Below, in pieces: positions 404 through 21,358 of a stretch of DNA of 21,379 nt. The stretch comes from a virus. Below the pieces are notes generated by a model. It did not search any database and had not been told where the DNA came from. It saw only the letters and a list, made by a program, of their open reading frames with translations. Both the position numbers and the translations under genes were made by a program. Within the stretch, counting starts at the first letter, position 1, and every line of letters starts with the position of its first letter. Location of the stretch: IMG/VR virus record IMGVR_UViG_3300012954_000110, positions 1 to 21,379 of that record, one strand, 5' to 3'.

Positions 404-431
404 TTGACATTTACCTAAATTGTAGTATAAT
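404..431 (+). promoter_or_regulatory. Sigma-70 promoter for the exonuclease gene, leaderless type
   Basis: A perfect -35 TTGACA (404-409), a 16-base spacer and a perfect -10 TATAAT (426-431) lie just upstream of the ATG at 438. Only six bases (agtgct) separate the -10 from the start codon, so the usual transcription start would fall on or next to the A of ATG. There is no Shine-Dalgarno. The same geometry recurs at 2671, 3096, 18218 and 20284. Confidence 0.85.
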
Positions 432-437
432 AGTGCT

Positions 438-977
438 ATGATTCATGCGATGATAGATCTGGAAACACTTTCCACCAACCCCAATGCCACTATACTGACT
501 GTTGGTGGTGTCAAGTTCGATCCTTACACAACCGTTGAACCCGCACAAGGAATGTACTTCCGTGTGGATGTGGATTCTCAGACGGAAATGGGCAGAGACG
601 TGATGCAGGACACACTGGACTGGTGGGGCAAACAGGATCCAGAGATAATGGAAGAAGCACTCGGAGACAAGGACAGGATTTCCCTGGATCAAATGATAAA
701 GACCATCAACAAGTGGTCCGTGGGAGTTGACGTTTTCTGGTGCCAAGGACCTTTGTTCGATTATGCCATACTTCAGAACCTATACACGCAACTGGGACAC
801 CCACAACCATGGCAGTACTGGCAGATAAGGGATTCGAGGACACTGTTCAGTCTGGTGCCACGTGATCCTAATGAGAAGAGAACTGGTCTGCACAATGCCT
901 TAGAAGATTGTTATTTCCAGGCCAAAAAAGTACAACGGGTGTACAAACAGTTGGGAATAAAAAATGGCAGATATTAA
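438..977 (+). CDS. DEDDh-type 3'-5' exonuclease (Rv2179c/DexA-like)
   Basis: The protein has 179 residues and should remove nucleotides from 3' ends of RNA or DNA with two metal ions. The exonuclease motifs are visible: DLE (D7, E9), D108 in GPLFDYAIL, and HNALED (H152, D157), which gives a DEDDh set. The segment DTLDWWGKQDPEIMEEAL and RDSRTL (131-136) are typical of the Rv2179c-like/RecE-side branch, the group of T4 exonuclease A (DexA). The length fits a single catalytic domain. It is the first gene of a tight group (14-base overlap with the next gene) behind a strong early-type promoter. A role in degrading host nucleic acid or in repair is likely. Whether RNA or DNA is the substrate cannot be told from sequence. 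Confidence 0.88.
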   Translation: MIHAMIDLETLSTNPNATILTVGGVKFDPYTTVEPAQGMYFRVDVDSQTEMGRDVMQDTLDWWGKQDPEIMEEALGDKDRISLDQMIKTINKWSVGVDVFWCQGPLFDYAILQNLYTQLGHPQPWQYWQIRDSRTLFSLVPRDPNEKRTGLHNALEDCYFQAKKVQRVYKQLGIKNGRY

Positions 978-1323
978 GTGGTACGACATCAGCGACCTTT
1001 ACACAATTAAAGATTACAAGATCACACACAAGAAAGATCCTGCTACAAAATGGATCAGACTGCCCTGTGTGTACAAGATAAAAATCAACGATGCGATAGT
1101 GGAGGTTGGTAGATCCGACACCTGCAAGAAACACGGTGGTGCGGAAAAGGTCAGGAAAGCGATCGTCAATCTCTTGAACGTGTTGGATCACAACAAGAGT
1201 GTCACGAAAACCAAAAGATGGGAACAAATCAGGTTGCAACACAAACCAAATAGTAGTAACATTAAGATAGGAATAATAAAAACCAATGCCATCAAAAAAA
1301 CCTATCTACAAGAAAGCCTTTGA
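964..1323 (+). CDS. Basic hypothetical protein
   Basis: The protein has 119 residues and is very Lys-rich. It overlaps the exonuclease gene by 14 bases and the HIT gene by 38, so it is probably translated with them. A GGGA just upstream could serve as a weak ribosome site. The middle contains VYKIKIN and, about ten residues on, VEVGRSDTCKKHGG followed by a helix-like stretch. This faintly recalls the N-terminal half of GIY-YIG nucleases, but the key GIY/YIG residues are not clearly there, so I make no functional claim. The high charge suggests nucleic-acid contact. The C-terminal 13 residues lie in the overlap with the HIT gene. Confidence 0.6.
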   Translation: MADIKWYDISDLYTIKDYKITHKKDPATKWIRLPCVYKIKINDAIVEVGRSDTCKKHGGAEKVRKAIVNLLNVLDHNKSVTKTKRWEQIRLQHKPNSSNIKIGIIKTNAIKKTYLQESL

Positions 1324-1687
1324 GACCATAGACCGATACGAGGAAAGCACCTGGTTGGGCAACGACACACCCATATTTGAGAACAAGCACACAGCAGTAT
1401 TCAAAGACAAATATCCATGCACCGCCGGACACACACTTTTCATACCAAAGGAGGATGATCCGGTATTCATAGGAGAGTCATACAAACTGGCCTACTACTG
1501 TGGCAAGGAATGGATCAAGGAAGGCAAGATGAAAGGATTCAACGTGGGCATGAACATAGGTCTATGTGCAGGACAAACTATCATGTGGCCACACATACAC
1601 TTCATACCCAGGCACGACGGTGACGCAGACCACAAGGGCGGACTAAGACACGCACACCCAGGAGCAGACCACAAGCAATATTACTAA
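1286..1687 (+). CDS. HIT-family nucleotide hydrolase/transferase-like protein
   Basis: The protein has 133 residues, the usual size of a single histidine-triad domain. HIT proteins hydrolyse or transfer nucleotides through a covalent nucleotidyl-histidine intermediate. The core GQTIMWPHIHFIPR (96-109) aligns with the usual GQTVxHxHxHxIPR. H103 (the nucleophile position) and H105 are kept, but the first triad His is W101. Other HIT features are GHTLFIPK (48-55) and NVGMNIG (86-92). The tail GGLRHAHPG matches the common GGVR end of the family. The last base of the TAA stop is the first base of the next ATG. Substrate unknown; an ApnA or nucleoside-phosphoramidate type of substrate is a family-level guess. 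Confidence 0.85.
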   Translation: MPSKKPIYKKAFETIDRYEESTWLGNDTPIFENKHTAVFKDKYPCTAGHTLFIPKEDDPVFIGESYKLAYYCGKEWIKEGKMKGFNVGMNIGLCAGQTIMWPHIHFIPRHDGDADHKGGLRHAHPGADHKQYY

Positions 1688-1968: not shown

Positions 1969-2049
1969 TATGTACAACTACTCCAGACCAACCTTTACCA
2001 TGCGTATATGTGCATCTGTGTGCGTTTAAAGGGGTGATTAAATAGCATT
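1969..2049 (+). promoter_or_regulatory. 81-base gap with a weak late-promoter-like octamer
   Basis: This is the longest gene-free stretch of the window. It contains an ATTAAATA octamer (2037-2044), a weak match to the T4 late motif, ending five bases before the ATG at 2050. A run GGGG (2031-2034) could act as a poor ribosome site. A 22-codon reading frame starts at an ATG at 1961 and ends at 2029, but nothing supports it as a gene. No -35 box or terminator hairpin is visible. Confidence 0.25.
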
Positions 2050-2685
2050 ATGACCAAGTATGTTAGTATAATAGGCAACGGTGAAAGCAGGCGAGGATTT
2101 GACGTTTCTCCTCTGAAGATGTTCAGCACGGTAATTGGATGTAATGCCATATACAGAGACTTCGTTACAGAATACCTGGTATGTGCAGACAAGCATATGT
2201 GCCAACAGGCGGTCAACGCCGTTGGTAAAGGAACCACAATATACACCAGAGAAAATTGGGCAGGTCAATTCGCCAATTGGTCCAATGTAAAAACATTACC
2301 AGGACTACCTTACGCAGGAGACAAGAGACAGGACGATACATTCCACTGGGGTACAGGTCCACACGCCGGCAACGTTGCGTTGAGTTTTAAACCAAAGGCC
2401 ATATTCATGTTGGGTTTCGACCTGCATCCTTTGGAAAAGGACAAGATCAACAACATGTACACAGGTTCTGAAGGATACAAATACATCAAGAGGCCAGTTG
2501 ATCCCAGTTACTGGATATACCAATTCCAGAAGTTAATGGGTTACTCAGATCCAGACACAAGATGGATAGTGGTAAATCATGATCGTTGGGAGATGCCCAA
2601 GGAATGGAAGGCACAGGCGAACGTGTTCCAAGAGACCTATGACGGCATGGCCAAGTTCATCAACAGGCAGTTGACAAAGAAGTAA
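2050..2685 (+). CDS. 'GNGESR' Rossmann-like protein, glycosyltransferase-like (paralogue 1)
   Basis: The protein has 211 residues. It opens with a Rossmann-type strand-turn, IIGNGESR (7-14), followed by IGCNAIYRD (29-37). Later comes GTGPHAGNVAL and, after a hydrophobic strand, MLGFDL. This order (GNGxS, xxxNA, small-residue helix, GFD) resembles the sialyltransferase/MAF (DUF115)-like proteins that bind nucleotide sugars, so a sugar-transfer role is possible but unproven. The same signature occurs in the gene at 6647, so the two are paralogues. The last 16 bases of the frame contain the -35 box of the next gene's promoter. Confidence 0.6.
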   Translation: MTKYVSIIGNGESRRGFDVSPLKMFSTVIGCNAIYRDFVTEYLVCADKHMCQQAVNAVGKGTTIYTRENWAGQFANWSNVKTLPGLPYAGDKRQDDTFHWGTGPHAGNVALSFKPKAIFMLGFDLHPLEKDKINNMYTGSEGYKYIKRPVDPSYWIYQFQKLMGYSDPDTRWIVVNHDRWEMPKEWKAQANVFQETYDGMAKFINRQLTKK

Positions 2686-2704: not shown

Positions 2705-3115
2705 ATGATCAAACCTATGGCCGATGACCTGATGGTGCAACAACAACTGAAGGCACCCCACAAGAGATGGAAACACATGGTGGCCGTGATGTGCCTTAAC
2801 CTCACATACAGGAAACATGTCAAAATAATCTTACCAAAACTCTTCGCACGTTATCCCAGTCCTGAGGCGTACCTGCGTGGTAGATTGAAAACCCAACAGC
2901 AGATGTTGAAGCCTCTGGGTATGTGGGAAGTTAGATCTAGAAGGATACGTAAGATGACTGAACAGTACCTATCCTGGGACAGGAAAGAAGCCAGTGACCT
3001 ACATGGCATAGGCAAGTATGGATCAGACAGTTACCAGATATTTTTCTACAACAACATACCACCCAACGTTCAGGACAAAGAGTTGAAGAAATACATTGAC
3101 AAACTTGTAGGATAG
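2705..3115 (+). CDS. MBD4-type HhH-GPD DNA glycosylase domain protein
   Basis: The protein has 136 residues, matching just the catalytic domain of vertebrate/plant MBD4, which removes thymine or uracil from G mismatches. The helix-hairpin-helix LHGIGKYGSDSYQIF (99-113) is almost the MBD4 sequence. It is followed by QDKELKKYID (123-132), in which D124 lines up with the catalytic Asp of MBD4. Upstream, MCLNLTYRK (29-37), FARYPSP (47-53) and MLKPLGMWEVRSRRI (67-81) match MBD4 in order. In the first of these, a Leu (L33) replaces the Arg found in MBD4's LNRT loop. No Fe-S cysteines are present, as in MBD4. It has its own promoter and probably acts as a monofunctional base-excision enzyme. The substrate base is uncertain because of the loop change. 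Confidence 0.85.
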   Translation: MIKPMADDLMVQQQLKAPHKRWKHMVAVMCLNLTYRKHVKIILPKLFARYPSPEAYLRGRLKTQQQMLKPLGMWEVRSRRIRKMTEQYLSWDRKEASDLHGIGKYGSDSYQIFFYNNIPPNVQDKELKKYIDKLVG

Positions 3116-3123
3116 TTTATAAT
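3096..3123 (+). promoter_or_regulatory. Sigma-70 promoter for the Sm-like gene, leaderless type
   Basis: A perfect TTGACA (3096-3101), a 16-base spacer and a perfect TATAAT (3118-3123) are followed by six bases (aaggat) and the ATG at 3130. The AAGGA in that gap ends one base before the ATG, too close to act as a normal Shine-Dalgarno. The -35 lies in the last codons of the glycosylase gene. Confidence 0.85.
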
Positions 3124-3129
3124 AAGGAT

Positions 3130-3435
3130 ATGTTTGATAAAATAAAAGATGGAGATCTAGTAACTCTTAAATTGGCTTCAGGGGAAGAAGTCATTGGAAA
3201 ATTCACAGGCAAGGCTGACACATACATCAGTATAGAGAAGGCACTTGTATTGATGCAGGGTCCACAAGGACTGGCATTTGGTACATTTTTCTCCACTGCC
3301 AAACAAGACGAACCTTTCAACATTGCCACAGACAAGTTGACTTCGATCGCACACATCAATGACAAGATAGCGGAAGAGTACAAAAGAGTCTTCAGCAAGA
3401 TTGAAGTTCCTGCAAAACCAAAGATCATAACGTAA
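3130..3435 (+). CDS. Small Sm/LSm-like (Hfq-fold-like) protein
   Basis: The protein has 101 residues. Residues 8-42 read as an Sm1-type sheet: GDLVTLKLASGEEVIGKF, then ADTYISIEKALVLM, i.e. three to four strands with the Gly/Glu turn typical of Sm-like proteins. A second beta-rich half (LAFGTFF, DKLTSIAHI) and a short helical tail follow. Sm-like folds form rings that bind RNA, but many phage members are untested, and I see no specific RNA-binding residues. It has its own strong promoter, and its stop codon overlaps the next start (TAATG). Fold assignment is moderate; function is inference. Confidence 0.65.
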   Translation: MFDKIKDGDLVTLKLASGEEVIGKFTGKADTYISIEKALVLMQGPQGLAFGTFFSTAKQDEPFNIATDKLTSIAHINDKIAEEYKRVFSKIEVPAKPKIIT

Positions 3436-5989: not shown

Positions 5990-6303
5990 AAAGTTTTGGC
6001 AAAGTGGATGTGAAAAGGATCAAACCTGAACTGTCGGACATACCCGAGGACTGCGGCTATGAGAAAAAGTTCCGTTTCAACATAGACATGAACTCTAACG
6101 GCATAATGGGCGAATGCATAGAGTGGTGCCAAGAGAACTGTGAAGGCAAATGGGGTTGGTGGTTTGAAAATGCCAATCGTATAGAGAATCCAAAGACACA
6201 CTGGGAGGATCAAGACAGTTACATGAGTTTCCAATACAAGAGAGATGCCACACGCTTCTGGCTGGCAATAGGTTTGAAAAACATGGGAGATAGAAGTAGA
6301 TAA
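5986..6303 (+). CDS. Hypothetical Trp/Cys-rich protein
   Basis: The ATG at 5986 overlaps the stop of the glycosyltransferase gene (ATGA), giving 105 residues. The frame stays open further upstream to 5806, but that part lies inside the glycosyltransferase. The protein is rich in Trp, Cys and acidic residues (ECIEWCQENCEGKWGWWFEN) and ends in a helix-like RFWLAIGLKN. No domain is recognised. The coupling suggests it is made with the glycosyltransferase. Confidence 0.65.
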   Translation: MKSFGKVDVKRIKPELSDIPEDCGYEKKFRFNIDMNSNGIMGECIEWCQENCEGKWGWWFENANRIENPKTHWEDQDSYMSFQYKRDATRFWLAIGLKNMGDRSR

Positions 6304-6311
6304 TTAATAGT

Positions 6312-6647: not shown

Positions 6648-7390
6648 TGGACACTGCTTTCATAATAGGTAACGGTGAGTCGAGAAACATATTTCCAATA
6701 GAAAATTTAAAAGGCAAAGGTGTGATATATGGTTGCAACGCCATATACCGAGACCATCCTAAGTTGTGTGATCACATTGTGGCTGTGAATCCTCCCATGT
6801 ACGAGGAACTGGCCGCCTGGCACAACAACGGAAAGGAATCTCCACAGATACACGGAAGAGATAACATCTCAGAATGGAACTACATCTGTGATGGTGATAA
6901 GGAAACAGACGTTCCGGAAGGACTCAAGATATACCGAGTGTGGAGGGGTGGTGACATCAAGAAAGGTGGCAAAATAAAAACCAATGACTTCACTAGGACC
7001 AAGGGTTCAGGTTGTAGTGCTGTGTTGATGGCGGCTGAATCTGGTGTGAAAAATATTGTGATACTGGCTTTCGACATCATGGGTGCCAGACAATGGGAGA
7101 TGGAAACCCCCAGCAGGATACAGAACAACATATACAAGAGCTCAAACAACTATCCAGGAAGAGAAAGTATGAAGGCATATCTCAAGTATGAATGGATGTA
7201 TCAACTCAGACAAACTTTTAGACAGTTTCCAGGAACAAACTTCCATTTCATCAACAGGAGGGAATACCTCGAAGGCAACCCGTTCCTGCGTTGGTACTTC
7301 GATCAACCAAATATAAAGTGTGGCATATACGCTGACCTGCAGAGATGGATCTCCGGTGCCAGGGATGATATCAAGTGGAAAACCCTATAG
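6647..7390 (+). CDS. 'GNGESR' Rossmann-like protein, glycosyltransferase-like (paralogue 2)
   Basis: The ATG at 6647 overlaps the HesB stop (TAATG) and gives 247 residues; an in-frame start at 6617 would only add residues overlapping the HesB gene. The N-terminus repeats the signature of the gene at 2050: IIGNGESR (6-13) and GCNAIYRD (29-36). Then come KGSGCSAVLMAA and IVILAFDI, followed by NNIYKSSNNYP, parallel to NNMYTGSEGYK in the other copy. This supports gene duplication with divergence. The layout recalls sialyltransferase/DUF115-like nucleotide-sugar enzymes, though no catalytic residue can be assigned. Its stop overlaps, tail to tail, the stop of the minus-strand gene. Confidence 0.6.
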   Translation: MDTAFIIGNGESRNIFPIENLKGKGVIYGCNAIYRDHPKLCDHIVAVNPPMYEELAAWHNNGKESPQIHGRDNISEWNYICDGDKETDVPEGLKIYRVWRGGDIKKGGKIKTNDFTRTKGSGCSAVLMAAESGVKNIVILAFDIMGARQWEMETPSRIQNNIYKSSNNYPGRESMKAYLKYEWMYQLRQTFRQFPGTNFHFINRREYLEGNPFLRWYFDQPNIKCGIYADLQRWISGARDDIKWKTL

Positions 7391-7639
7391 AGTTATTGTG
7401 CTACTAGCGTCGAGTTTGTAGACCTTACGCATTTTCACACCTACCTTCTGTGCAAACCTTTTCGTGTCACAATGTGAACAGACATGTTTGTAATCATTGG
7501 TGGCCCTCTCAGGATCCACTTTCGCTCTTGGTCTTAGAAATTGCACTCCGCATGAATCACATTTGAATACAAATACAGTATTTTTCCGGTGAAAGGTGTG
7601 GTAAACGCCACATTTGCTCTGGCGTTCGTACAGTCTCAT
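7385..7639 (-). CDS. Small zinc-ribbon protein, only minus-strand gene
   Basis: Read on the minus strand from the ATG at 7639 the protein has 84 residues. An in-frame ATG at 7663 and a TTG at 7666 would lengthen it, but the recognisable part starts at MRLYERQ. Two CxxC knuckles, C27-D-S-C30 and C54-S-H-C57, would bind one zinc, and a basic segment KRFAQKVGVKMRKVYK follows. The pattern resembles zinc-ribbon proteins of phages and the zinc part of HNH-type enzymes, but no HNH catalytic residues are seen. It converges with the upstream plus-strand gene, sharing six bases at their stops. It lies exactly between the auxiliary block and the tail block. DNA binding or regulation is a guess. Confidence 0.72.
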   Translation of the reverse strand: MRLYERQSKCGVYHTFHRKNTVFVFKCDSCGVQFLRPRAKVDPERATNDYKHVCSHCDTKRFAQKVGVKMRKVYKLDASSTITL

Positions 7640-7674
7640 AGTTTTTAATGTTTCGACAAACATCAATATTATTT

Positions 7675-7682
7675 AATAAATA
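7675..7682 (+). promoter_or_regulatory. T4-type late promoter octamer before the first tail gene
   Basis: AATAAATA matches the late consensus NATAAATA. It lies 14 bases before the ATG at 7697, so the transcript leader would be only about nine bases. No Shine-Dalgarno is visible for this gene. Confidence 0.55.
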
Positions 7683-7696
7683 TGTATATTCGATAT

Positions 7697-8575
7697 ATGG
7701 CTAGATTAAACATAGACACAGGAGCAGTAGGAAACCCGGCAACAGGCGATACTTTACGTACGGCCTTCAACAAGATCAACACGAATTTCTTAGAACTCTA
7801 CACAGATTTGGCGGCCACAACATCATCAGGAGGTGTGTTAACTAATTCAATCACAAACGGTAATGTAAAAATAGTTGCAAACGGAACAGGTATTGTTGAA
7901 ATTGATAGATTATCAATAAACAACACCACAATAAGTTCACTAGATACCAACGCAGACATCACACTTACAGCAAATGGCACAGGTAGTATTGTGTTGGCAG
8001 GACCAGTTACAGCAAGTGAGATTGTAACCAATGAGATCTCAACTAATGGATCGAACGCAGACTTGAAACTTATAACATCAGGCACAGGTGATATTTTATT
8101 GAAAGGTAAAAGAGTTGGAATTGCTGATGTTAACCAACCAGATTCACTCTTACACCTAAAAGATACAAATGCAGTCATAACACTCCAGAGAACTGCTGAC
8201 GCAAACACTCCTGGTCTAAGTTTCCAACAATCAGGCGGCAACGTAAGAGCAGTTATTAAGATGGATGGTACATCAGGCACATCCAATGAAATTTTCTTCC
8301 AGACATACTCCGGTTCATTGGCAGAGAGATTCAGGGTGACACACACAGGTGCGAAGGTATCTGGCACTTTAAATGTAGACGGCGGAATTAGCATCACTGA
8401 CAACAAAATAACGTCATCGGCTTCAAACGCAAACATACAGATCGATGCCGCAGGATCAGGAGCGATTGAGTTACTAACACAAAAAGTAATAATTGCTAAC
8501 CTTCCAACAAGCGATCCTAGTGTTGCTGGACAACTTTACCAGTCAGGTTCTGATTTAAAAATTAGCCAAGGATAA
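7697..8575 (+). CDS. Tail fibre/tail structural protein with GTG repeats (copy 1)
   Basis: The ATG at 7697 (292 residues) is preferred over 7682 because the protein then begins MARLNIDTG like its paralogues. Residues 17-35 carry the shared signature GDTLRTAFNKINTNFLELY. Repeats of about 30 residues follow around 77-100, 113-135 and 236-260, each of the type ISTxxxNADLxLTxxGTGxI. A middle segment (about 141-222) with DSLLHLKD and AERFRVTHTGAKV resembles phage fibre domains often found near the tip. The end, NLPTSDPSVAGQLYQSG (268-284), is a common closing motif in marine T4-like phage structural proteins. It is probably a trimeric beta-rich fibre, with the N-terminus attaching it to the tail. 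Confidence 0.78.
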   Translation: MARLNIDTGAVGNPATGDTLRTAFNKINTNFLELYTDLAATTSSGGVLTNSITNGNVKIVANGTGIVEIDRLSINNTTISSLDTNADITLTANGTGSIVLAGPVTASEIVTNEISTNGSNADLKLITSGTGDILLKGKRVGIADVNQPDSLLHLKDTNAVITLQRTADANTPGLSFQQSGGNVRAVIKMDGTSGTSNEIFFQTYSGSLAERFRVTHTGAKVSGTLNVDGGISITDNKITSSASNANIQIDAAGSGAIELLTQKVIIANLPTSDPSVAGQLYQSGSDLKISQG

Positions 8576-8578
8576 TAA

Positions 8579-9559
8579 ATGGCCCAGGAAATAATCAACA
8601 TTGGAATACAGGCCGATGACGGTACAGGCGACACTATCAGAGGCGCCGGAGTAAAGATCAACAACAACTTCACAGAAGTCTATGCAAGGCCACACCTAAC
8701 TTTGCCAGGCTTAGAGTTCTCCGGCAACGTGGTCACAGTGACAAGGTCCAATGATGACCTAGTGTTGGGGGCCAGTGGCACAGGCACAGTCACAGCACCT
8801 GAGATCACAATAGACGCAACTATAAACATCTCGGATAATGACATCAAGGTCAACACATCAAACGCTGACCTAGTAATGACAGCAAACGGCACAGGTTCTG
8901 TAGCAATCACAAAATTAGACCTAGACGATGGAACAGTTGATGCGACAACTATAGGATCAAGCACGGCTTCAACAGGTGAGTTCACAACTATGACTGCGAC
9001 AGGGTCAAGTTCAATAGATGTAATAACAATCACAGATAATACCATTTCAACCAACACCACCAACTCCGATTTAGAACTTACTGGTTCAGGTACAGGCACA
9101 GTATCGTTCAGTGGTATCAAATTTCCCACTAGCGATGCAGTTGGAAATAGAGCGTTGCAAACAAATGGAAATGGACAACTATCATTTTTTAGACCGGATA
9201 TATTATTAGAACATGCAGAGTTAACTGATGGTACAGCAACCATAACAGGTAATAGTGTGGCACAAACTTTTGATAGTTTCAGTGCTTCCACGTACAGAAG
9301 TGCAAAATATCACATACAAATTTCTGACGCAACAGCAAATAGATTTAGTATGATAGAAGCGAACGTCACACACGATGGCACGAACGCATACGTCAGTGTG
9401 TTTGGCGGTGTGGACAATGGAGCAGGTGACGGATCATCTGTGTATGACTCACTTGAATTTACTGCTGTAATAAACAGTGGCGATGTAAGGGTACGAGGTA
9501 AAGTAAATAACACTAACAGTCAGGTTATAAAATTTGTGAGGAGACCAATTAAGGTATAA
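8579..9559 (+). CDS. Tail fibre/tail structural protein with GTG repeats (copy 2)
   Basis: The protein has 326 residues and starts three bases after the previous stop, with AAGGA as ribosome site. The N-terminus carries GDTIRGAGVKINNNFTEVY, the shared attachment signature. Three repeats (VTRSNDDLVLGASGTGTV, VNTSNADLVMTANGTGSV, STNTTNSDLELTGSGTGTV) form the shaft. The last about 110 residues (from LEHAELTDG; TYRSAKYHIQISDATANRF) form a domain shared with the next gene and ending IKFVRRPIKV. This C-terminal domain probably forms the tip or a receptor-contacting head; that is inference. No enzymatic motif is seen. Confidence 0.78.
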   Translation: MAQEIINIGIQADDGTGDTIRGAGVKINNNFTEVYARPHLTLPGLEFSGNVVTVTRSNDDLVLGASGTGTVTAPEITIDATINISDNDIKVNTSNADLVMTANGTGSVAITKLDLDDGTVDATTIGSSTASTGEFTTMTATGSSSIDVITITDNTISTNTTNSDLELTGSGTGTVSFSGIKFPTSDAVGNRALQTNGNGQLSFFRPDILLEHAELTDGTATITGNSVAQTFDSFSASTYRSAKYHIQISDATANRFSMIEANVTHDGTNAYVSVFGGVDNGAGDGSSVYDSLEFTAVINSGDVRVRGKVNNTNSQVIKFVRRPIKV

Positions 9560-9560
9560 T

Positions 9561-10532
9561 ATGGCAAGGATTAACTTAAACGTAGGTTCAAACGCTAACA
9601 CCGGAGACGGTCAAACTTTGAGATCGGCTATGCAAGATGTGAACACTATGTTCACGGAGATATACGCTTCATCGCTTTTCGATGATGGTTTGCAACTGAG
9701 TGGTAACGAGATCAGGGCAACCAGATCCAATGACGATCTTGTGTTAAAACCAAGCGGAACGGGTATAGTCACCATGGACAGTCTCACAGTGGATTCCAAC
9801 ATTAATATCACAGACAACGAAATCAAAACTACTGTATCAAATTCAGATCTTAACCTTTCAGCGTCTGGAACAGGACAAGTTGTGATAGCCAAGGCTGACA
9901 TAAATGCTGGAACAATAGACAACACAACTATAGGTGCCACAACTCCAGCGGCAGGAACTTTTACTACTTTGACTGCGGGCATAAGTGCAACACTCGATGG
10001 GGTCTTGGTCAAGGACAACACGATATCCACCAACGCCACCAACGCCGATCTAGAACTTTCGGCTTCGGGAACAGGTACAGTAAGTATAAACGGATTAAAA
10101 ATGCCTGCCTCGGACGGCTCGGCCAATCAGTTATTAAAGACAAGCGGTGCTGGTGTGTTAAGTTTTGCCACTGTCACGCCAACGTTGAGTCATTCAGAAC
10201 TAGGTGATGGCACCAACACTATCGCCACTTCAACCACTACCCAACTCGATAGTTTTGACTCTGCTACCTACAGAAGTGCAAAATACTACATCTCGATATC
10301 GGACGCAACAAATGGCAGATTCGAACTTGTAGAAGCAAACGTCATACATGGTCCGAGTGCTGACAGCACCATCGAAGCATATGTTTCTGTGTTCGGTTCG
10401 ACAACTTCTTACACTGCACCACTTTGTACTTTCACTGCAGACATAGATGACGGTCTTGTGAGATTACTTGCGACAAATATCAGTAATAATAGCACTATAT
10501 TCAAGTATCAAAGAATACTTTTTGACCTTTAA
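9561..10532 (+). CDS. Tail fibre/tail structural protein with GTG repeats (copy 3)
   Basis: The protein has 323 residues. It follows the previous gene by one base, with AAGG six bases before the ATG. The N-terminal signature is slightly different (GDGQTLRSAMQDVNTMFTEIY). Three GTG repeats follow (TRSNDDLVLKPSGTGIV, TVSNSDLNLSASGTGQV, TNATNADLELSASGTGTV). The C-terminal domain, from LSHSELGDG through TYRSAKYYISISDATNGRF to the end, is clearly homologous to that of copy 2; the DNA shares an identical 17-base stretch at 9293-9309 and 10269-10285. The two genes are therefore a tandem duplication that has diverged mostly in the last 60 residues. Confidence 0.78.
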   Translation: MARINLNVGSNANTGDGQTLRSAMQDVNTMFTEIYASSLFDDGLQLSGNEIRATRSNDDLVLKPSGTGIVTMDSLTVDSNINITDNEIKTTVSNSDLNLSASGTGQVVIAKADINAGTIDNTTIGATTPAAGTFTTLTAGISATLDGVLVKDNTISTNATNADLELSASGTGTVSINGLKMPASDGSANQLLKTSGAGVLSFATVTPTLSHSELGDGTNTIATSTTTQLDSFDSATYRSAKYYISISDATNGRFELVEANVIHGPSADSTIEAYVSVFGSTTSYTAPLCTFTADIDDGLVRLLATNISNNSTIFKYQRILFDL

Positions 10533-12235: not shown

Positions 12236-12243
12236 AATAAATA
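12236..12243 (+). promoter_or_regulatory. T4-type late promoter octamer
   Basis: AATAAATA matches NATAAATA. It ends 20 bases before the ATG at 12264, with an AAGGAG ribosome site (12251-12256) between them. Confidence 0.62.
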
Positions 12244-12263
12244 CCCGTGTAAGGAGTAAAGTA

Positions 12264-14789
12264 ATGGCAACACCAGTGTGGACAACCACGGAAGGTAAAT
12301 TAGCAACTATACAAGAGCAAGTAGCATATTCGCTACAACTCGAAGCAAATGATCCTGTTCCCATGGGCGATTCCACGGCCGTCACTTACTCCCTGATAGC
12401 AGGAAGCCTACCTGTAGGAATGCAGGTCACATCAACAGGCTTACTGACAGGTACTCCGGCTGAGGTTGCCAAAAGAACTCTTTACACCTTCGTCGTGCGA
12501 GCCACGGCCGGTACCGCTATCACAGACAGAACATTCAAGTTGGACGTGCAAGGTGCAGACTCTCCCACGTTCACAACAGCATCAGGACAACTGCAACTAG
12601 ACGATTCCACAAGTGTTGGACTATACTGGGTCATAGATGGCGCCAGTGTTCAACTTCAAATGCAGGCCACAGATTCGGACACAGCAACAGGCCAGAAATT
12701 GGTATACGAGATAGTCAAAGGATCTTTGCCGCCTGGAATAACTCTCAGCAAGACAGGATTGATTTCAGGTATTGTTGCACTCACAGAGGACCAGAAGTTT
12801 GGAATAAGAGGAGGTTATGATGGCACAGGAACAGAAGACAAGTTCAATGGAATTTACGATAGAACAGTAACTTCAAAGAGTGTAAGCAAGAACTTTGATT
12901 TCATTGTAAGGGTATCAGATGGAGTAAGTTACGTTGAACAAAACAATTCTATTTTTGTATACACAGCAGATTTCTTTAGAGTTTCCAACTCCGGAGTAAC
13001 AATTGACGCCACAGAGATCGACGGAACAGCGTTGACAATGGACTTCAGTGGTAACAGGAGACCCGTTTTCAGGACAGGTTCTGATCTGGGAACATTCAGA
13101 CATGACAATAGTGTTGTGGTAAAAATTGATGTCGAAGACTTCGATCCATTGCAGGGAGACCTAGAGTATTCAATACATTCAGGATCTTTGCCTGCAGGAG
13201 TTTCAATTGATATCACATCCGGTGAACTTCATGGGCAGTTGGCAAGGCAGTCAGCAATTGAAGTGGACTACAATTTCACAGTCAGAGCCAAGAGGGTAAT
13301 ATCACCAGGCGTGGAAGTGTTCACGGACAAAGATTTCACAATGAAAGTAATAGGTGAAATAGACATAGGGATAGAATTCACAACCCCAACAGACCTAGGA
13401 ACACTTAAAGCCAACATACCAAGCCTTTTGACTGTAGAAGCAAAATCAGATGATACAAACAGAATATTAAGTTACAGTGTTACCTCAGGAAGTTTACCAA
13501 GTGGCATTACACTATCTCGTCAAGGCAACTTCATAGGTAAGATAGACCCTAGTGACTTCTCAGATTCAACAACGTCATACACATTTACAGTCACGGTCAG
13601 TGATCAATATCAGGCCGCGGCAACTTCGAAAGAATTTACTTTAAATGTTGAAATTCCATACAACTTTGTAGAATACGGAAACATGACTGGACACGCAACA
13701 TCATTCATAGATCAGAACATATTCTATAGCATAGCACAAGATCCAACAATTAATGATTCGTCGTATGTATATAGATCGGAGGATCCAAACTTTGGAATAA
13801 AATTGAAACCAGACATGCTGATGATGGCCGGGTTAGAGGCACAAACTTTGACAACTTTCCAACAACAAATGGAACAGAACCATGCTCCTAAGACTCTTTA
13901 CTTCGGAGATCTTAAGACCGCAGTGGCCAAAGAAGGCTCAACCACAAAATATGAAGTTGTTTATATTACAATAAAAGACAACATGGTCAACAGCAAGGGC
14001 GAAGCAGTTTCAAGTTCTATAAAACTACGAGATGCTGTTGTAAAACCTGTGTTGGGTCCTAGAGCTTCTACCATGAATGCAACAACGGATCTGACAGATT
14101 ACGAAATAACGACAGATAGTGGGTTGGCGTTCAGCACATCAGGATCAAAAGTCAGATACGCAAACCAGTTGAGTGCAGACCTAGGTTTCATGGAAACACT
14201 GTATCCAAATGCTGTTGCCAATATGAGAAGCAGAATGAAGACTCTTGGGCACAAGGAATGGGATTATCTTCCATTGTGGATGAAGACCACACAGGCAGGA
14301 GATAAAGCACCGCTTGGATACGTGATGGCCGTGCCTGTGTGCTATTGCAAACCAGGTACAGCAGGATTGGTAAAGAAAAGAATCCAAGACAAAGCACTAA
14401 AATTCCAAGATATCGCTTTTACTATTGACAGATATACCGTTGGAAACAACAAGATTTCTTCTAATCAATTTACAGGTGATGGAACAACTAAAACATTCCA
14501 ACTTAACGAAATAGTCCATGAGGAAGACATCAAGGTACTTGAGGGCACTCAAAGAGTGTACGCTGGTAAAGGGGTCACTGCGGACAACAATGTGATTCCT
14601 AGTTATCTCACAGTTGATGGCACACTAAGATCAGCGGACCACGAGTTTGGAATAACACTTACGCATGACACAGAAAACAAAAAAACAACGATGACTTTTA
14701 CCAAAGAAGCACCAGCACTCGATACAATTATAAAGGTGGAGAGATTGAACGATAAATATCTTAAATTTAGAGACAAAGGAATATTTTAA
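12264..14789 (+). CDS. Large virion protein with four Ig-like (He_PIG) domains
   Basis: The start at 12264 (MATPVW) is chosen because an AAGGAG lies seven bases upstream; the product has 841 residues. The first about 465 residues contain four Ig/cadherin-like domains, each marked by the turn GSLPxG at 47-52, 153-158, 307-312 and 409-414, followed by a strand such as LSKTGLISG. This is the He_PIG-type putative Ig domain, common on phage tails, where it may bind carbohydrate weakly. The last about 375 residues are a different, mixed alpha/beta part with no recognised domain, including FTGDGTTKTFQLNEIV. It is a likely tail or baseplate component, flanked by fibre genes. Stop and next start overlap (TAATG). 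Confidence 0.75.
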   Translation: MATPVWTTTEGKLATIQEQVAYSLQLEANDPVPMGDSTAVTYSLIAGSLPVGMQVTSTGLLTGTPAEVAKRTLYTFVVRATAGTAITDRTFKLDVQGADSPTFTTASGQLQLDDSTSVGLYWVIDGASVQLQMQATDSDTATGQKLVYEIVKGSLPPGITLSKTGLISGIVALTEDQKFGIRGGYDGTGTEDKFNGIYDRTVTSKSVSKNFDFIVRVSDGVSYVEQNNSIFVYTADFFRVSNSGVTIDATEIDGTALTMDFSGNRRPVFRTGSDLGTFRHDNSVVVKIDVEDFDPLQGDLEYSIHSGSLPAGVSIDITSGELHGQLARQSAIEVDYNFTVRAKRVISPGVEVFTDKDFTMKVIGEIDIGIEFTTPTDLGTLKANIPSLLTVEAKSDDTNRILSYSVTSGSLPSGITLSRQGNFIGKIDPSDFSDSTTSYTFTVTVSDQYQAAATSKEFTLNVEIPYNFVEYGNMTGHATSFIDQNIFYSIAQDPTINDSSYVYRSEDPNFGIKLKPDMLMMAGLEAQTLTTFQQQMEQNHAPKTLYFGDLKTAVAKEGSTTKYEVVYITIKDNMVNSKGEAVSSSIKLRDAVVKPVLGPRASTMNATTDLTDYEITTDSGLAFSTSGSKVRYANQLSADLGFMETLYPNAVANMRSRMKTLGHKEWDYLPLWMKTTQAGDKAPLGYVMAVPVCYCKPGTAGLVKKRIQDKALKFQDIAFTIDRYTVGNNKISSNQFTGDGTTKTFQLNEIVHEEDIKVLEGTQRVYAGKGVTADNNVIPSYLTVDGTLRSADHEFGITLTHDTENKKTTMTFTKEAPALDTIIKVERLNDKYLKFRDKGIF
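14751..14758 (+). promoter_or_regulatory. T4-type late promoter octamer inside the end of the Ig-domain gene
   Basis: GATAAATA matches NATAAATA and ends 30 bases before the ATG at 14789, with AAAGGA in between as ribosome site. It lies in coding sequence, so a chance match is possible. Confidence 0.45.
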
Positions 14790-15632: not shown

Positions 15633-16268
15633 ATGTCAAATACTTTTACTTGGAAAACAAAATTTAAATCGATCATTATTGTAGACGGAGAATTGTTTTC
15701 AAACGAATATAAATTGAATGTATCACTCACACCTCACACAGCAAACTTAAAGGAGCAAACACAATACTTCGAGAGATTGAAAAATCTTTTTGAGCAGGTG
15801 TTCGCCAACACAATTACCACATGGAGGGACGAACCTCTATACAAGGTCCTGAAGAAGAACACAAACAATAGATTCATTGAATTACCAAAGCCTCCATATG
15901 ATCAGATAATGGCGGCTGTGTGTTTCTGCAAGGCCAACAGCATTCTAGAGAGCAACATCACCATAAACCACATATCATTGAGCTCATGGCAAGGTGACGG
16001 TATTACCTACACGGTTGACAAAGACAGCAAAGAGCTTATACTTTTAGATAGACCGGACTGGTTTTCGGAAAAATATAACACGTTTGACCCATGGTGGTTG
16101 AGACCCGACACGGCAACATATGATGAAGAACTCGACAAAGGCATTTACACTGGACATTTTAGTTGGAACGATCAGCAGATTCCAGTTGACAAGAAGCACG
16201 AGTATCATGCTAAAGTGTTTGAGTTCCAACCAAAGGTTTTAGATGGCGGCAAAAACAAAGATAAATGA
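15633..16268 (+). CDS. Conserved-looking hypothetical protein
   Basis: The protein has 211 residues and begins 12 bases after the previous gene, with no clear Shine-Dalgarno. The N-terminal half has alternating strands and a helix (TWKTKFKSIIIVDGELFSNE, YFERLKNLFEQVFANTI). A PYDQIMAAVCFCKANSILES segment follows, then GITYTVDKDSKELILLDRPDW. No motif of a known enzyme is seen. Its 3' end overlaps the start of the DnaE-like gene by 26 bases, suggesting the two are translated together. It might be a partner of that protein; this is inference from the overlap only. Confidence 0.65.
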   Translation: MSNTFTWKTKFKSIIIVDGELFSNEYKLNVSLTPHTANLKEQTQYFERLKNLFEQVFANTITTWRDEPLYKVLKKNTNNRFIELPKPPYDQIMAAVCFCKANSILESNITINHISLSSWQGDGITYTVDKDSKELILLDRPDWFSEKYNTFDPWWLRPDTATYDEELDKGIYTGHFSWNDQQIPVDKKHEYHAKVFEFQPKVLDGGKNKDK

Positions 16269-16764
16269 TCATGGCGATGTTATATTCACAGAGCAAGAAG
16301 CAATAGATCTACTTTACACCAACCCAGACTTTGAAATTTCTAAACTGTTCTTTGAAAAAATTGAACAGTACAACGACGCCATTAAACAAATAGGTGCTGA
16401 CCTTACACCAATTAACACTGCACCCAAAAGAAAATCTCCAGCAGAATTTGATGCAATAAATATTGGTAATTGGCACATGCCAGACAAGTACTATCAAATA
16501 AATGTGTTGGAATGGTTACTAGACAAGTGTCAAAGCGACGAGGAAAAGATGAGAGTGCAAACAGAATACGATTTATTTGAAAAGAAAAAATTCGTTAAGG
16601 TTTTACAATTTTTAATTTACTTTGTGGACACACTACGGGCAAACAACATAGTGTGGGGAGTTGGAAGAGGTTCCAGTGTGGCCAGTTTTTGTTTGTTCTT
16701 GATAGGTGTACACAAAATTAATCCAATGCTGTACAATTTAGATATCAAGGAATTCCTAAGATGA
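16243..16764 (+). CDS. DnaE (DNA polymerase III alpha)-like fragment, lacks catalytic Asps
   Basis: The protein has 173 residues. Its C-terminus, WGVGRGSSVASFCLFLIGVHKINPMLYNLDIKEFLR at 138-173, closely follows the palm-entry segment of bacterial Pol III alpha (GPGRGSxxGSLVAYxLxITxIDPLxxxLLFERFL). In real DnaE that segment is followed within about ten residues by the catalytic DFDxD. Here the protein stops right after EFLR, so the active site is missing. Residues 1-110 (LLYTNPDF, KYYQINVLEWLLDKC) do not match DnaE in any way I can see. The next gene starts at the overlapping ATGA and does not continue the polymerase. It could be a clamp- or host-replisome-binding decoy, or a relic. The match is by recognised motif only. 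Confidence 0.7.
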   Translation: MAAKTKINDHGDVIFTEQEAIDLLYTNPDFEISKLFFEKIEQYNDAIKQIGADLTPINTAPKRKSPAEFDAINIGNWHMPDKYYQINVLEWLLDKCQSDEEKMRVQTEYDLFEKKKFVKVLQFLIYFVDTLRANNIVWGVGRGSSVASFCLFLIGVHKINPMLYNLDIKEFLR

Positions 16765-17786
16765 AGATTTCCATAGAGAGCTCAAAGCCTATCACCGAAT
16801 ACTACTTGCTTGACCTGTCGGAAAACAAGATAGATTTCAAAATAGACGAAAATTTCAATTTAGACAAGGGGTGGTATGAACTGCACCTACACTACCCTGG
16901 CCAGAGAACGAAAATCAATGATATAAAAATAAACGGCGAAAGCATCGTAGAAACTATATGGGCAGGACACTACCTCGACGGTGAAGGCAACAAGCATCAG
17001 CCTGCCGGTGTCATGTGGGACGAAGGTGGTGTGATAAAAGTATGGATACACACAAACCTTGGCGTGTTGTTTGATAGGATCTTCACGGAAATTGACGGTG
17101 GGGACCTCGGAGAAAACTTGTATAAAAAGTACCAGTTCACTGTTGACAGGCCCTGTTCATTAAAAAATCCATTCCCTGAGAGTATAAAAAGTTATTTCGC
17201 ACACGGTGATGGTCCGCACTGGTGGAAAAAAGACACAGACTACACCCCATACAAAATACTAGACATAGACACCCCACCTGTTGAAGAGATTTTAGAAGAG
17301 ATGGACAGGATCAGTGTACGTGAAATAAAGGGAGCATTCAAAGGTGTTATTGATATAAAGACCAATTCGCCTACAAAATCAGATCTTCCGTTCATTGATA
17401 TGGATTGGGAGAAGGTGCCTAGGATGAAAGAACTACTGGTGGACAAGGTTGGCTATAAAAATATCCTAAGTATCAACCTACAGACCTTACAACCACACAA
17501 AAATTTGGTGCTACACAGAGATGACCATTACAAAAGGAAAAAGTATCCGATCATTCGCGGATGTAAAAAATTCTACTGGCCGTTAACCGGCGACCTTGAA
17601 AACAATTATTTCAAACTTGGTAAAGCAGGTATGTTGCCTGCAAAGAACAGACCATTTTTGATTAACACACTCGAACACACGCACACGGCAGTGAACGACA
17701 GTGACGAACCTAGAAGTGTTTTAATTGTGTATGGTGACCTTCCAGGCGAAATTTTAGGACCAGGCGATCAGCGTGATGATAAGTAA
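16761..17786 (+). CDS. 2-oxoglutarate/Fe(II) oxygenase-like protein (Asp/Asn hydroxylase type)
   Basis: The protein has 341 residues. The C-terminal third has the jelly-roll oxygenase signature: INLQTLQPHKNLVLHRDDHY with the H252-x-D254 pair, KKFYWPLTGDL, LINTLEHTHTAVND with the distal H308, and R318 in EPRSVLIVYGD, the usual 2-oxoglutarate contact. This is the pattern of the aspartyl/asparaginyl beta-hydroxylase family. The first about 190 residues form a separate beta-rich part (YYLLDLSENKIDFKID, GWYELHLHYPG) that I cannot name and that might bind the substrate. It overlaps the DnaE-like gene by four bases (ATGA). Likely substrates are virion or host proteins; none can be read off. Confidence 0.75.
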   Translation: MKISIESSKPITEYYLLDLSENKIDFKIDENFNLDKGWYELHLHYPGQRTKINDIKINGESIVETIWAGHYLDGEGNKHQPAGVMWDEGGVIKVWIHTNLGVLFDRIFTEIDGGDLGENLYKKYQFTVDRPCSLKNPFPESIKSYFAHGDGPHWWKKDTDYTPYKILDIDTPPVEEILEEMDRISVREIKGAFKGVIDIKTNSPTKSDLPFIDMDWEKVPRMKELLVDKVGYKNILSINLQTLQPHKNLVLHRDDHYKRKKYPIIRGCKKFYWPLTGDLENNYFKLGKAGMLPAKNRPFLINTLEHTHTAVNDSDEPRSVLIVYGDLPGEILGPGDQRDDK

Positions 17787-17805: not shown

Positions 17806-18234
17806 ATGGTAGCAAGAGCACCCAGGAAAAGAATGTACAGAACCATGCAGGGACGTATGGTAGACATAGAAAAATTACGAGCGGCAAACGAATCAGTACA
17901 GGCTGTTGGTAATATGAATGTGAATGCTAGAGGTGACGTATTAGGCCCAGGTGGAGCAATAGTAACTCCCAAATCACAAGTGATTAAAAAATATTACGAA
18001 CAACCAAAAGGCATGGTTGACGATACTCCAGTAAAAGGCAAACCAGCACCAGCACCTAAAACTGAACCAAAGAAGACTGTCCAGAAGATGACACCGGTTG
18101 CTAGTAAACCTGCCCCACAGAAAGCAGTGGCACCAACACCAAAGGTTGAAACAAAACCAGTGGAAACATTCAAACCAAAAACAGAGAGCACGGCCAAAAA
18201 AGGTATAGATGCGGCTCTTGACGGACTAGAATAA
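17806..18234 (+). CDS. Pro/Ala/Lys-rich hypothetical protein
   Basis: The protein has 142 residues. The first about 60 residues are ordered-looking and basic (ARAPRKRMYRTMQGRMVDIE; GNMNVNARGDVLGPGGAIV). The remaining 80 are a Pro/Ala/Lys/Thr-rich, probably disordered tail (PAPAPKTEPKKT; PKVETKPVETFKPKTES) ending in a short acidic helix. The first-half pattern NARGDxLGPGG occurs in marine T4-like phage proteins of unknown role. A disordered, basic tail suggests a linker or DNA/RNA contact. A good GGAG ribosome site precedes it. Confidence 0.65.
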   Translation: MVARAPRKRMYRTMQGRMVDIEKLRAANESVQAVGNMNVNARGDVLGPGGAIVTPKSQVIKKYYEQPKGMVDDTPVKGKPAPAPKTEPKKTVQKMTPVASKPAPQKAVAPTPKVETKPVETFKPKTESTAKKGIDAALDGLE

Positions 18235-18246
18235 ATCATTTATAAT
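18218..18246 (+). promoter_or_regulatory. Sigma-70 promoter for the co-chaperonin gene, leaderless type
   Basis: A -35 TTGACG (18218-18223, five of six) lies inside the end of the upstream gene. A 17-base spacer leads to a perfect TATAAT (18241-18246), then eight bases (acttctat) and the ATG at 18255. There is no Shine-Dalgarno. Confidence 0.78.
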
Positions 18247-18254
18247 ACTTCTAT

Positions 18255-18698
18255 ATGGGACAGATAGAAGACTTACAAGCAAAAGGTTTCGGATCACACG
18301 GTGGTAAGCAATACACTGTTGACAACGACATAACACCACTCAAGAAAAGAGTGCTTGTTTCAGACATGCACTTCGGAGAACGTACCACCAAAGGTGGAAT
18401 AATCATGATGGACGACGATGGGTCTGCAGATGGCATTCACCCACGTTGGGCAAAAGTATACGCAATAGGCAACCAACAGGAAGACGTCAAAGTTGGACAG
18501 TGGGTGATGGTCGCACACGGTAGATGGTCGAGAGCATTCAAAGTCAAGAAGCAAGGAGTCGAACTGGAAGTGAGGATGATTGACGAGAACGATATTCTAC
18601 TAGTATCAGACACCGAACCAGAATTCAACACCAAACAAGCAGGGTATATCAACACAGGCGGTATGCAACAGATGACCAAACTACCTGGCAATGACTAA
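18255..18698 (+). CDS. GroES-like co-chaperonin (gp31-type)
   Basis: The protein has 147 residues, longer than host GroES (about 95). GroES caps the GroEL ring; T4 replaces it with gp31 to fold the capsid protein. The fold is visible: ITPLKKRVLVSD (26-37), the mobile-loop segment ERTTKGGIIMMDDDG (42-56) with the GGII that docks on GroEL, then WAKVYAIGNQ, VKVGQWVMVAHGRW and MIDENDILLVSD (108-119). An extra 28-residue tail (FNTKQAGYINTGGM) follows. It has its own strong promoter and overlaps the next start by eight bases. A role in folding virion proteins with host GroEL follows from the family. Confidence 0.9.
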   Translation: MGQIEDLQAKGFGSHGGKQYTVDNDITPLKKRVLVSDMHFGERTTKGGIIMMDDDGSADGIHPRWAKVYAIGNQQEDVKVGQWVMVAHGRWSRAFKVKKQGVELEVRMIDENDILLVSDTEPEFNTKQAGYINTGGMQQMTKLPGND

Positions 18699-19907: not shown

Positions 19908-20286
19908 AATCAAAAAAATAAAAGTAGAAATAAGCAAACTGGTTACCATGGCAGAGATGGGACTTGGTGCAGTGCGTCCTCTAAACAAAGAAAAGAGAGC
20001 ATGGATCAACAAACTTAAAAAAGAGGGTGTATGGGATCCAATACTTGTGACCCCAATAAAGGACAGTGGGTATTATCTGCTGACAGACGGGTGGCACAGA
20101 GTACAGGCCGCAACGGCACTCAAAAGAAAAACAATGAACGCATTACAATTACCAGCCAATGCAGGTCTGAGCATGGCCAAGGCAAACAAGATCCTACGAG
20201 ACATAGACAGGGAGTTTGGTTTCAAACTGGATTGTAGCAACATTATAGGCCATTGGGCCATGATGCAAACACTGTTAGAAGAGTAG
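19894..20286 (+). CDS. ParB/sulfiredoxin-like domain protein
   Basis: The protein has 130 residues. The core VWDPILVTPIKDSGYYLLTDGWHRVQAA (46-73) has the ParB N-terminal pattern: PIxVxP, a strand, then DGxHRxxAA (65-73), with Trp in the motif. The family includes CTP-binding partition proteins and small nucleases or kinases. Only this one domain is here, with no DNA-binding helix-turn-helix, so plasmid-type partition is unlikely. The remaining 50 residues (SMAKANKILRDIDREFGF) are helical. It overlaps the upstream gene by 14 bases. Nuclease, ATPase or regulatory roles all remain open. Confidence 0.72.
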   Translation: MKQIKIKKIKVEISKLVTMAEMGLGAVRPLNKEKRAWINKLKKEGVWDPILVTPIKDSGYYLLTDGWHRVQAATALKRKTMNALQLPANAGLSMAKANKILRDIDREFGFKLDCSNIIGHWAMMQTLLEE

Positions 20287-20311
20287 ACAAATCACAAATA
20301 TCTGTTATAAT
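20284..20311 (+). promoter_or_regulatory. Sigma-70 promoter for uvsE, leaderless type
   Basis: A -35 TAGACA (20284-20289, five of six) overlaps the upstream stop codon. A 16-base spacer leads to a perfect TATAAT (20306-20311). The second in-frame ATG of uvsE (20318) lies exactly six bases downstream. No Shine-Dalgarno is present. Confidence 0.78.
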
Positions 20312-20317
20312 ATGAGC

Positions 20318-21358
20318 ATGGTACAACGTTTCGGTTTCTGTTGCAAATGGCTCAATGACACCAGTGAATTCGGTGGCATGAAAGTGAATGCCAAGGACAG
20401 AGAACTCAACGGAAGGTCGACAACAATGCGTTGGCTTCGTGAACACAAGGACGAGGCAGAACAACGACAATGGGACATACTCACACACAACACACTGGCC
20501 GCACGTAGACTGGTACAACGTGTGGGCACACTGCCACCTGAACGTAGGATGGTCAGACTTGGTAGTGAGATGCTACAAGGTTACACAGAGAAAGACTGGA
20601 AGGCATGGTGGCAAAGACCAGAACTACAAGATCACTTGGCAAAATTATTCGCACCCGTGGGCGAGATGGCTAGGAAGTTGGATGTGAAGGTGAGTTTCCA
20701 CCCAGGACAGTTCTGTGTGCTTTCAAGCGCCACTCCAGACATTGTTGACCGTAGCATAGAAGAATTCGAATATCATGCGGACATGGCACGTTGGATGGGT
20801 TTTGGCAAATCATTCCAGGATGGTTGCAAGATAAACGTACACATCTCAGGCAAACAAGGACCAGACGGAATCATAAAAGCACTACCTAGACTATCGCAAG
20901 AGGCAAGGAACTTGATCACAATCGAGAATGACGAGATGGGACATGGACTTGAAAAAAGCCTTGAACTGGAAAAGCACCTGGCCCTTGTGCTGGACATACA
21001 CCATCACTGGATCCGAGATGAGGAATACATCGAAGCAAATGATGACAGGGTCAAAAGGGTTATTGACAGTTGGCGTGGTGTGAGACCCAGTATGCACTAC
21101 TCTTATTCCAGAGATGAACACTTGGCAGTTGCAAACCTGGGTGACAAGACACACACGGAAATGCACGATATCAAGATGTTGCTTGAACGTGGTTGCAAAA
21201 AACAGAAACTTAGAGCACACTCGGACCTATTACCAAACAAAAAGGTAAACGACTGGGCATTGTCTTTCTCGGAAAACTTCGACATACAGGTCGAGGCCAA
21301 AGGTAAAAACATGGCCCAGGAACAATTATATAGACAATACCTAGAGAATTCTATATAA
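20318..21358 (+). CDS. uvsE: UV-damage endonuclease UvsE (UVDE)
   Basis: UvsE nicks DNA on the 5' side of UV photoproducts using a TIM-barrel, three-metal active site. The ATG at 20318 (346 residues) fits the promoter geometry; an in-frame ATG at 20312 directly follows the -10. Counted from 20318, family motifs in order are VSFHPGQFCVLSS (125-137), KINVHISGK (171-179), ITIENDE (200-206), LVLDIHHHW (223-231), MHYSYSR (259-265) and RAHSDLL further on, covering the His/Glu/Asp metal ligands. The early YRISS-type motif is replaced by VRLGSEM. Length is normal for the family. Together with the exonuclease and the MBD4-like glycosylase it makes a light-damage repair set suited to surface waters. 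Confidence 0.92.
   Translation: MVQRFGFCCKWLNDTSEFGGMKVNAKDRELNGRSTTMRWLREHKDEAEQRQWDILTHNTLAARRLVQRVGTLPPERRMVRLGSEMLQGYTEKDWKAWWQRPELQDHLAKLFAPVGEMARKLDVKVSFHPGQFCVLSSATPDIVDRSIEEFEYHADMARWMGFGKSFQDGCKINVHISGKQGPDGIIKALPRLSQEARNLITIENDEMGHGLEKSLELEKHLALVLDIHHHWIRDEEYIEANDDRVKRVIDSWRGVRPSMHYSYSRDEHLAVANLGDKTHTEMHDIKMLLERGCKKQKLRAHSDLLPNKKVNDWALSFSENFDIQVEAKGKNMAQEQLYRQYLENSI

Follow-up and report, generated by a model that had tools for sequence, protein, structure and literature searches.

Leaderless translation is usually deemed rare in systems that use Shine-Dalgarno (SD) sequences; lambda cI is the standard phage example, and the Thermus thermophilus phage phiYS40 is the main phage-wide case. 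In phiYS40 the middle and late transcripts are leaderless, and during infection IF2 is raised and IF3 lowered (PMC3594737). Genes of Deinococcus-Thermus bacteria have a -10 box (TANNNT) 6-7 bp before the open reading frame (ORF) and no ribosome binding site (PMC12340547), surveys have found -10 boxes adjoining ORFs in other bacteria as well, and in the alphaproteobacterium Sinorhizobium meliloti 171 leaderless transcription start sites were mapped experimentally, all of them with AUG (PMC3616915). Here we describe promoters that stand at a leaderless distance from the start codon in the IMG/VR virus record IMGVR_UViG_3300012954_000110 (21,379 bases), which is a fragment of its virus's genome and is called the window below, and in the relatives of this virus. 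The closest precedent is phiYS40, also a tailed phage with many leaderless genes, although in the present case leaderlessness is predicted from the sequence alone. In phiYS40 middle and late genes are concerned and the host belongs to Deinococcus-Thermus; the promoters described here are near-consensus sigma70 and T4-type late promoters, and no kinship is claimed. Unlike the bacterial genes of Deinococcus-Thermus, the viral genes have a near-perfect -35 box too, and stand beside SD-led genes in the same genome. With the cellular S. meliloti genes they share the exclusive use of AUG and the (here predicted) position of the 5' end on the AUG.

All positions on both strands of the window were scored for matches to the 12 consensus bases of sigma70 promoters (TTGACA, spacer of 16-18, TATAAT). 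A sequence-only reading of the window had pointed to five promoters standing 6-8 nt ahead of an ATG without a usable SD sequence, and this description was borne out for boxes, spacers, distances and the lack of SD. All five are on the plus strand. The promoter of the exonuclease gene (404-437) reads TTGACA-16-TATAAT (404-431) and is followed, after 6 nt, by the ATG at 438. The promoter of the HhH gene (2671-2704) reads TTGACA-16-TAAAAT (2671-2698; 6 nt; ATG at 2705), and that of the Sm-like gene (3096-3129) reads TTGACA-16-TATAAT (3096-3123; 6 nt; ATG at 3130). The -35 boxes of these two promoters lie inside the 3' ends of the preceding genes, 2050-2685 (codons for ..QLTKK) and 2705-3115, respectively. 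The GroES promoter (18218-18254; TTGACG-17-TATAAT, 18218-18246) is 8 nt from the ATG at 18255 and is either of the leaderless type or has a leader of 1-3 nt. The UvdE promoter (20284-20317; TAGACA-16-TATAAT, 20284-20311) has the 6-nt distance only if the start is the second ATG, at 20318, since an in-frame ATG at 20312 directly abuts the -10 box (0 nt). Phage UvdE homologues align from the second ATG.

Sites matching at least 11 of the 12 consensus bases occur seven times on the plus strand of the window and not at all on the minus strand, compared with a mean of 0.29 and a maximum of 2 in 300 dinucleotide shuffles. Such a site with an ATG 5-9 nt downstream was expected 0.033 times from the shuffles, and five were found at 6-8 nt without usable SD. 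The sixth site, at 16015, is probably due to chance: it lies within a gene, and no ATG follows over the next 48 nt. The seventh, TAGACA-17-TATAAT (21331-21359, within 21331-21379, plus strand), is a leadered promoter, in which the -10 box is followed by AGGAG (21373-21377) and the next gene starts past the end of the window; in the relatives its counterpart is 23-25 nt from the ATG, with AGGAG. At the looser threshold of 9/12 the window has no excess over shuffled sequence (23 vs 25.4 +/- 5.9; 26 vs 20.6 +/- 4.8), so only near-consensus sites are informative. The lack of excess at 9/12 is what one would expect if an A+T-rich background mimicked promoters by chance. Against this, the excess at 11/12 is more than 20-fold and confined to one strand, and both the -35 and the -10 box are near-invariant across relatives, which leaves chance a negligible probability.

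The sequence-only reading would have failed if the fixed spacing were lost in close relatives. To follow the promoters there we used several hundred related loci collected in five scans of viral contigs; counts refer to distinct loci, and a promoter was scored as conserved if it matched at least 10/12 bases and its -10 box ended 4-9 nt before the ATG. The spacing was kept in all five cases, from 84/111 to 122/122 by gene. The HhH promoter was present in 101 of 102 relatives, 97 at exactly 6 nt, and the Sm-like promoter in all 122, at 5-8 nt (89 at 6). The UvdE promoter was kept in 79/93 (5-7 nt, 56 at 6) and the exonuclease promoter in 84/111, of which 44 were at 5 nt, 40 at 6 and none with SD. 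For GroES the 60 conserved cases among 69 were mostly at 8-9 nt. The range among relatives, 5-9 nt, is thus wider than the 6-8 nt seen in the window. Across the relatives of all five genes a single SD-like sequence was found beside a conserved promoter. Other genes in the same loci behave in the opposite way: SD was present in 103/110 cases for QueD, 71/71 for the gene at 12264, 68/68 for that at 17806 and 65/70 for that at 15366, and these genes hardly ever carry a short-distance promoter. Some neighbours have neither SD nor promoter because they overlap the preceding gene.

The same spacing was found behind distinct upstream genes (20 families for UvdE, seven for exonuclease, four each for HhH and GroES, three for Sm-like). 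For the Sm-like gene it is unchanged whether the HhH gene or the 2050 gene precedes; the coding sequence that holds the -35 box differs between the two. Because the spacing is kept behind differing upstream genes, it is not just inherited context. The promoter might travel as a unit with its gene; in either case promoter plus ATG would be the conserved entity.

To see how general the layout is, we took the strong sigma70 sites in ten contigs, which total 0.89 Mb with the window, and measured how far it is to the next ATG that opens an ORF of 50 codons or more. Of 157 sites, 39 were at 6 nt, which was the peak, and 67 at 5-8 nt; the opposite strand gave 2. In nine contigs (the atypical contig G003 was left out) the distances were bimodal: one group of 65 genes lies at 4-9 nt, with a mode of 6, and another of 23 genes at 15-45 nt, hardly anything falling between 10 and 14 nt. 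An SD-like 4-mer preceded one of the 65 short-distance genes and 16 of the 23 long-distance genes, the background before any ATG being 0.096. Counted by gene family, 27 leaderless families had no SD, whereas 12 of 19 leadered families had one. One of the 27, a cluster of 4 genes for 175-179-aa proteins, is probably a coincidence within coding sequence: its site lies in codons for VDENNKKLYNED, and it was rejected as leaderless because that coding sequence is conserved. The cluster is contained in the above counts of sites, genes and families, which it does not materially change. The start codons at 5-8 nt were exclusively ATG (60; GTG 0, TTG 0). Over all marine loci, one of 446 unique sigma70 sites at 4-9 nt had an SD, and the more distant UvdE loci were bimodal as well (25 at 4-9 nt, SD 0; 27 at 15-45 nt, SD 17). 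In G003 (IMGVR_UViG_3300026183_000930, a 124-kb relative by UvdE; L382-L388) strong sigma70 promoters were leadered in 14 cases and leaderless in one, many of the leadered ones having a recurrent GAGAGGTA-type ribosome site; leaderless late-type motifs numbered 8. This relative served as a natural contrast to the others.

The second class of promoters has the core of T4 late promoters, ATAAATA; in T4 this TATA box is read by gp55 (PMC2988020). The core occurred 173 times on the coding strand and 21 times on the opposite strand. Its distances, too, fell into two classes: none of the 76 genes at 4-9 nt (mode 5) had an SD, whereas 31 of 39 genes at 15-45 nt had one. From the sequence, 27 gene families are predicted to be leaderless of the late type. 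In the window a late-type variant at 2038 (promoter 2037-2049, plus strand), ATTAAATA, stands 5 nt before the ATG at 2050, and TTAAATA precedes this ATG in 105/119 relatives, at 5 nt in 103 and at 6 nt in two. Two further variants on the plus strand are of lower confidence: ATAATTA (6300-6311), 5 nt before the ATG of the Fe-S assembly gene at 6312, whose orthologue in relative G005 has ATAAATA at 5 nt, and TTAAATA (123-136), 7 nt before the ATG at 137. Leadered late promoters are found on the same strand. ATAAATA is followed by 27 nt with AAGGA before the tail gene at 10595 (10561-10594), by 20 nt with AAGGAG before the tail gene at 12264 (12237-12263), and by 30 nt with AAGGA before the ATG at 14789 (14752-14788; SD in 58/69 relatives). 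A gp55-family late sigma homologue (phrog_234, E=4.2e-25) is encoded by G001 (IMGVR_UViG_3300030329_003470), with 196 kb the longest relative. Activation of T4-type late promoters is coupled to replication and the sliding clamp; some relatives encode a clamp loader. In the cultured Pelagibacter phage HTVC008M (Kyanoviridae) twelve late-type motifs precede annotated starts by 5-8 nt, among them the starts of baseplate, tape-measure and end-protector genes.

With both classes in view it can be asked whether the starts have been wrongly assigned, so that ordinary leadered mRNAs would be translated from a downstream in-frame ATG. Some ORFs do have more in-frame ATGs nearby (codon 5 of the HhH gene), but homologues align from the first codon, and the N-terminal residues of the Sm-like protein, MF..IKDGD, hardly vary from residue 1 on. 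In L141 and L132, whose HhH N-terminus is displaced by a codon, the -10 box shifts along and the 6 nt are retained. The HTVC008M motifs, too, stand at 5-8 nt from annotated starts. We regard misassignment as very unlikely.

Genome compaction offers another account, in which short intergenic space crowds the promoters, translation proceeds by re-initiation and the precise spacing does not matter for translation. The tight packing of genes and the several -35 boxes inside upstream coding sequence are in keeping with it. Compaction predicts, however, a spread of short distances and not modes at 6 and 5 with the nearly empty 10-14 nt zone of the sigma70 class, and it leaves the ATG-only starts unexplained. 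Nor is the peak seen in T4, the cyanophages or 121Q: short-distance sigma70 sites numbered 0 in T4, S-CAM3 and S-TIM54, 1 of 120 strong sites in 121Q and 1 of 24 in HTVC008M, and T4 and S-CAM3 had no late motif at 4-9 nt ahead of an ORF of 50 codons or more. Their late motifs are at least 12 nt from the ATG with hardly an exception, whereas those described here share the ATAAATA core, are mostly at 5-8 nt and lack SD. Compaction appears improbable. Since the spacing is kept across relatives and contexts, SD is absent, the starts are ATG only and unrelated reference phages do not have the pattern, the sequence evidence, within its limits, supports selection for the leaderless architecture.

The sequence-only reading had gone further and taken the five promoters for a leaderless regulon of early genes, in which leaderless starts would be selected as a means of timing or favouring nucleic-acid and folding functions needed early ("early" and "late" here go with promoter type, from which timing is presumed). 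The sigma70 leaderless set does contain many genes for replication, repair and proteostasis: to exonuclease, HhH, Sm-like, GroES and UvdE the relatives add DnaJ, ThyX, ClpS and the clamp loader. The leaderless layout itself held up, but its restriction to early-type promoters did not. Leaderlessness crosses promoter classes, because the T4-type late motif stands at the same distance in many genes (76, as often as in the sigma70 class), among them the 2050 gene of the window. Moreover, 23 sigma70 genes are leadered, e.g. the DnaK-like gene and the gene behind the 21331 promoter; relatives G005, G006, G007, G009, G010 and G011 encode GroES, DnaJ, ClpS and DnaK-like proteins, the first three leaderless-type and the last leadered with SD. 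The clamp loader, QueE and the Fe-S gene have orthologues that are leaderless in some lineages and leadered in others. A dedicated early regulon is thus unlikely, if somewhat less so than compaction. The accompanying claim that tail genes keep strong ribosome sites applies to the tail genes of the window, with their leadered late promoters, but does not extend to HTVC008M, in which several baseplate and tail genes are leaderless-type.

We favour the reading that these are real promoters, whose transcription start coincides with the A of the start codon or lies no more than about 3 nt away from it, and that this is a general leaderless mode; we give it a probability of about 0.86. Transcription from sigma70 promoters starts about 7 nt past the -10 hexamer, and from T4 late promoters about 1 nt closer. 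With the modal distances of 6 (sigma70) and 5 (late), +1 would coincide with the A of the ATG in each class. A review of T4 puts the TATA box ahead of the start by about one helical turn (PMC2988020). RNA polymerase with host sigma70 would make an mRNA that begins with the AUG, and a ribosome, presumably by the 70S pathway, would initiate on this terminal AUG without SD; because there is no SD, such initiation is the simplest account. In the same lineage the second promoter, ATAAATA, would be used likewise, presumably with a late sigma resembling gp55, and leaderless starts and leaders with SD would be two alternative modules, genome-wide and in both promoter classes. Promoter and start codon would form one module of about 40 bp, able to sit within the end of the upstream gene. 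It is plausible that efficient translation of such an ORF requires a transcript from its own promoter, which read-through transcripts would not replace.

Several points weigh against the favoured reading. Re-initiation by ribosomes ending the upstream gene could also deliver translation, as upstream stops lie 14-34 nt before the ATGs. The 8-9 nt spacing of GroES could mean a leader of 1-3 nt. Only one of the 13 contigs searched, many of which are fragments, yielded a late sigma homologue. A pyrimidine at -1 was only marginally more frequent at the level of families in the leaderless than in the leadered class (43/54 vs 19/32, p=0.05). Finally, most of the data come from one related group, so that locus counts are non-independent and family-level counts are safer.

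Among cultured phages, HTVC008M resembles the present group in its late motifs but not in its sigma70 promoters, which are hardly ever leaderless. Matches to the late-type pattern numbered ten in the Pelagibacter phage Mosig (controls three) and seven in Melnitz (controls four); the Melnitz paper gives 31 early and 15 late promoters, and leader lengths are not described in the portion of it that we consulted. In a non-exhaustive search of the literature we found no report of leaderless expression in Pelagibacter phages, T4-like late genes or T4-related marine phages. IF3 discriminates against leaderless mRNAs. In the Agrobacterium phage Atu_ph07 (MF403008) a gene at 244-747 is annotated as translation initiation factor 3, and the whole record has 17 ATAAATA-N5-8-ATG matches (controls 6); the IF3 gene together with leaderless-type late motifs may merit attention. 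As for the host, the only matches in cellular genomes were phage contigs (L469, L470) in the metagenome-assembled genome Rickettsiales MED657. Many contigs of this assembly show the same promoter pattern, but those of this phage group include apparent near-duplicates, which makes the assembly unfit to name a host, and none is claimed.

All five genes behind the sigma70 promoters encode nucleic-acid or folding proteins and are on the plus strand: a 3'-5' exonuclease (438-977; PF16473, phrog_255), an HhH-GPD-like base-excision repair protein (2705-3115; Pfam score weak and below cut-off, phage homologues annotated endonuclease III/ENDO3c), a Sm/LSm-like, putatively RNA-binding protein (3130-3435), a GroES-like co-chaperonin (18255-18698; PF00166) and the UV damage endonuclease UvdE (20318-21358; PF03851). 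The Sm-like assignment comes from a profile match to PDB 3by7 (E=0.0013), which was also the top Foldseek match (probability 1.00) of a protein model with mean pLDDT 70. The gene behind the late-type promoter (2050-2685, plus strand) had no Pfam match. Scans of the window for tRNAs and Rfam families found nothing.

Some other features of the window may be mentioned. Its base composition is strand-biased (A 35%, T 23%), and nearly all genes are on the plus strand; a lone minus-strand ORF (7385-7666, 93 aa) has two CxxC pairs and is zinc-ribbon-like, the other likely genes all being on the plus strand. Four consecutive paralogous tail-type proteins, starting MAR/MAQ..NIG..TGDGTGD or similar, occupy 7682-12037. 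The first of them (ATG at 7697) has ATAAATA 14 nt upstream and no SD, and possibly represents a short-leader class. A 173-aa protein (16243-16764) matches only part of DNA polymerase III alpha (PF07733, phrog_11127). The gene directly after it (16761-17786) is missing from all but 9 of about 70 related loci, which suggests an insertion.

Leaderless phage expression is known already, and the layout predicted here, in a widespread, uncultured and mostly marine group of bacterial viruses with hundreds of relatives and two promoter types, would be a variant of it. In this one virus group, common in marine metagenomes, leaderless starts are predicted in dozens of gene families beside SD-led genes. 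The orthologues that switch modes form natural matched pairs in which the purpose of leaderless starts can be studied, and the prediction is open to testing, as the cultured phages HTVC008M and Mosig show the late-type version. A practical warning is to take the promoter into account when start codons are called. More tentatively, a large, abundant and mostly marine T4-related lineage may use two modes of translation, each promoter of either class being fused to a 5'-terminal AUG or to an SD leader; leaderless ORFs would then be conditional on their own promoter and would shift with the state of initiation factors and 70S ribosomes, amounting to a phage-wide translational switch and not to scattered exceptions.

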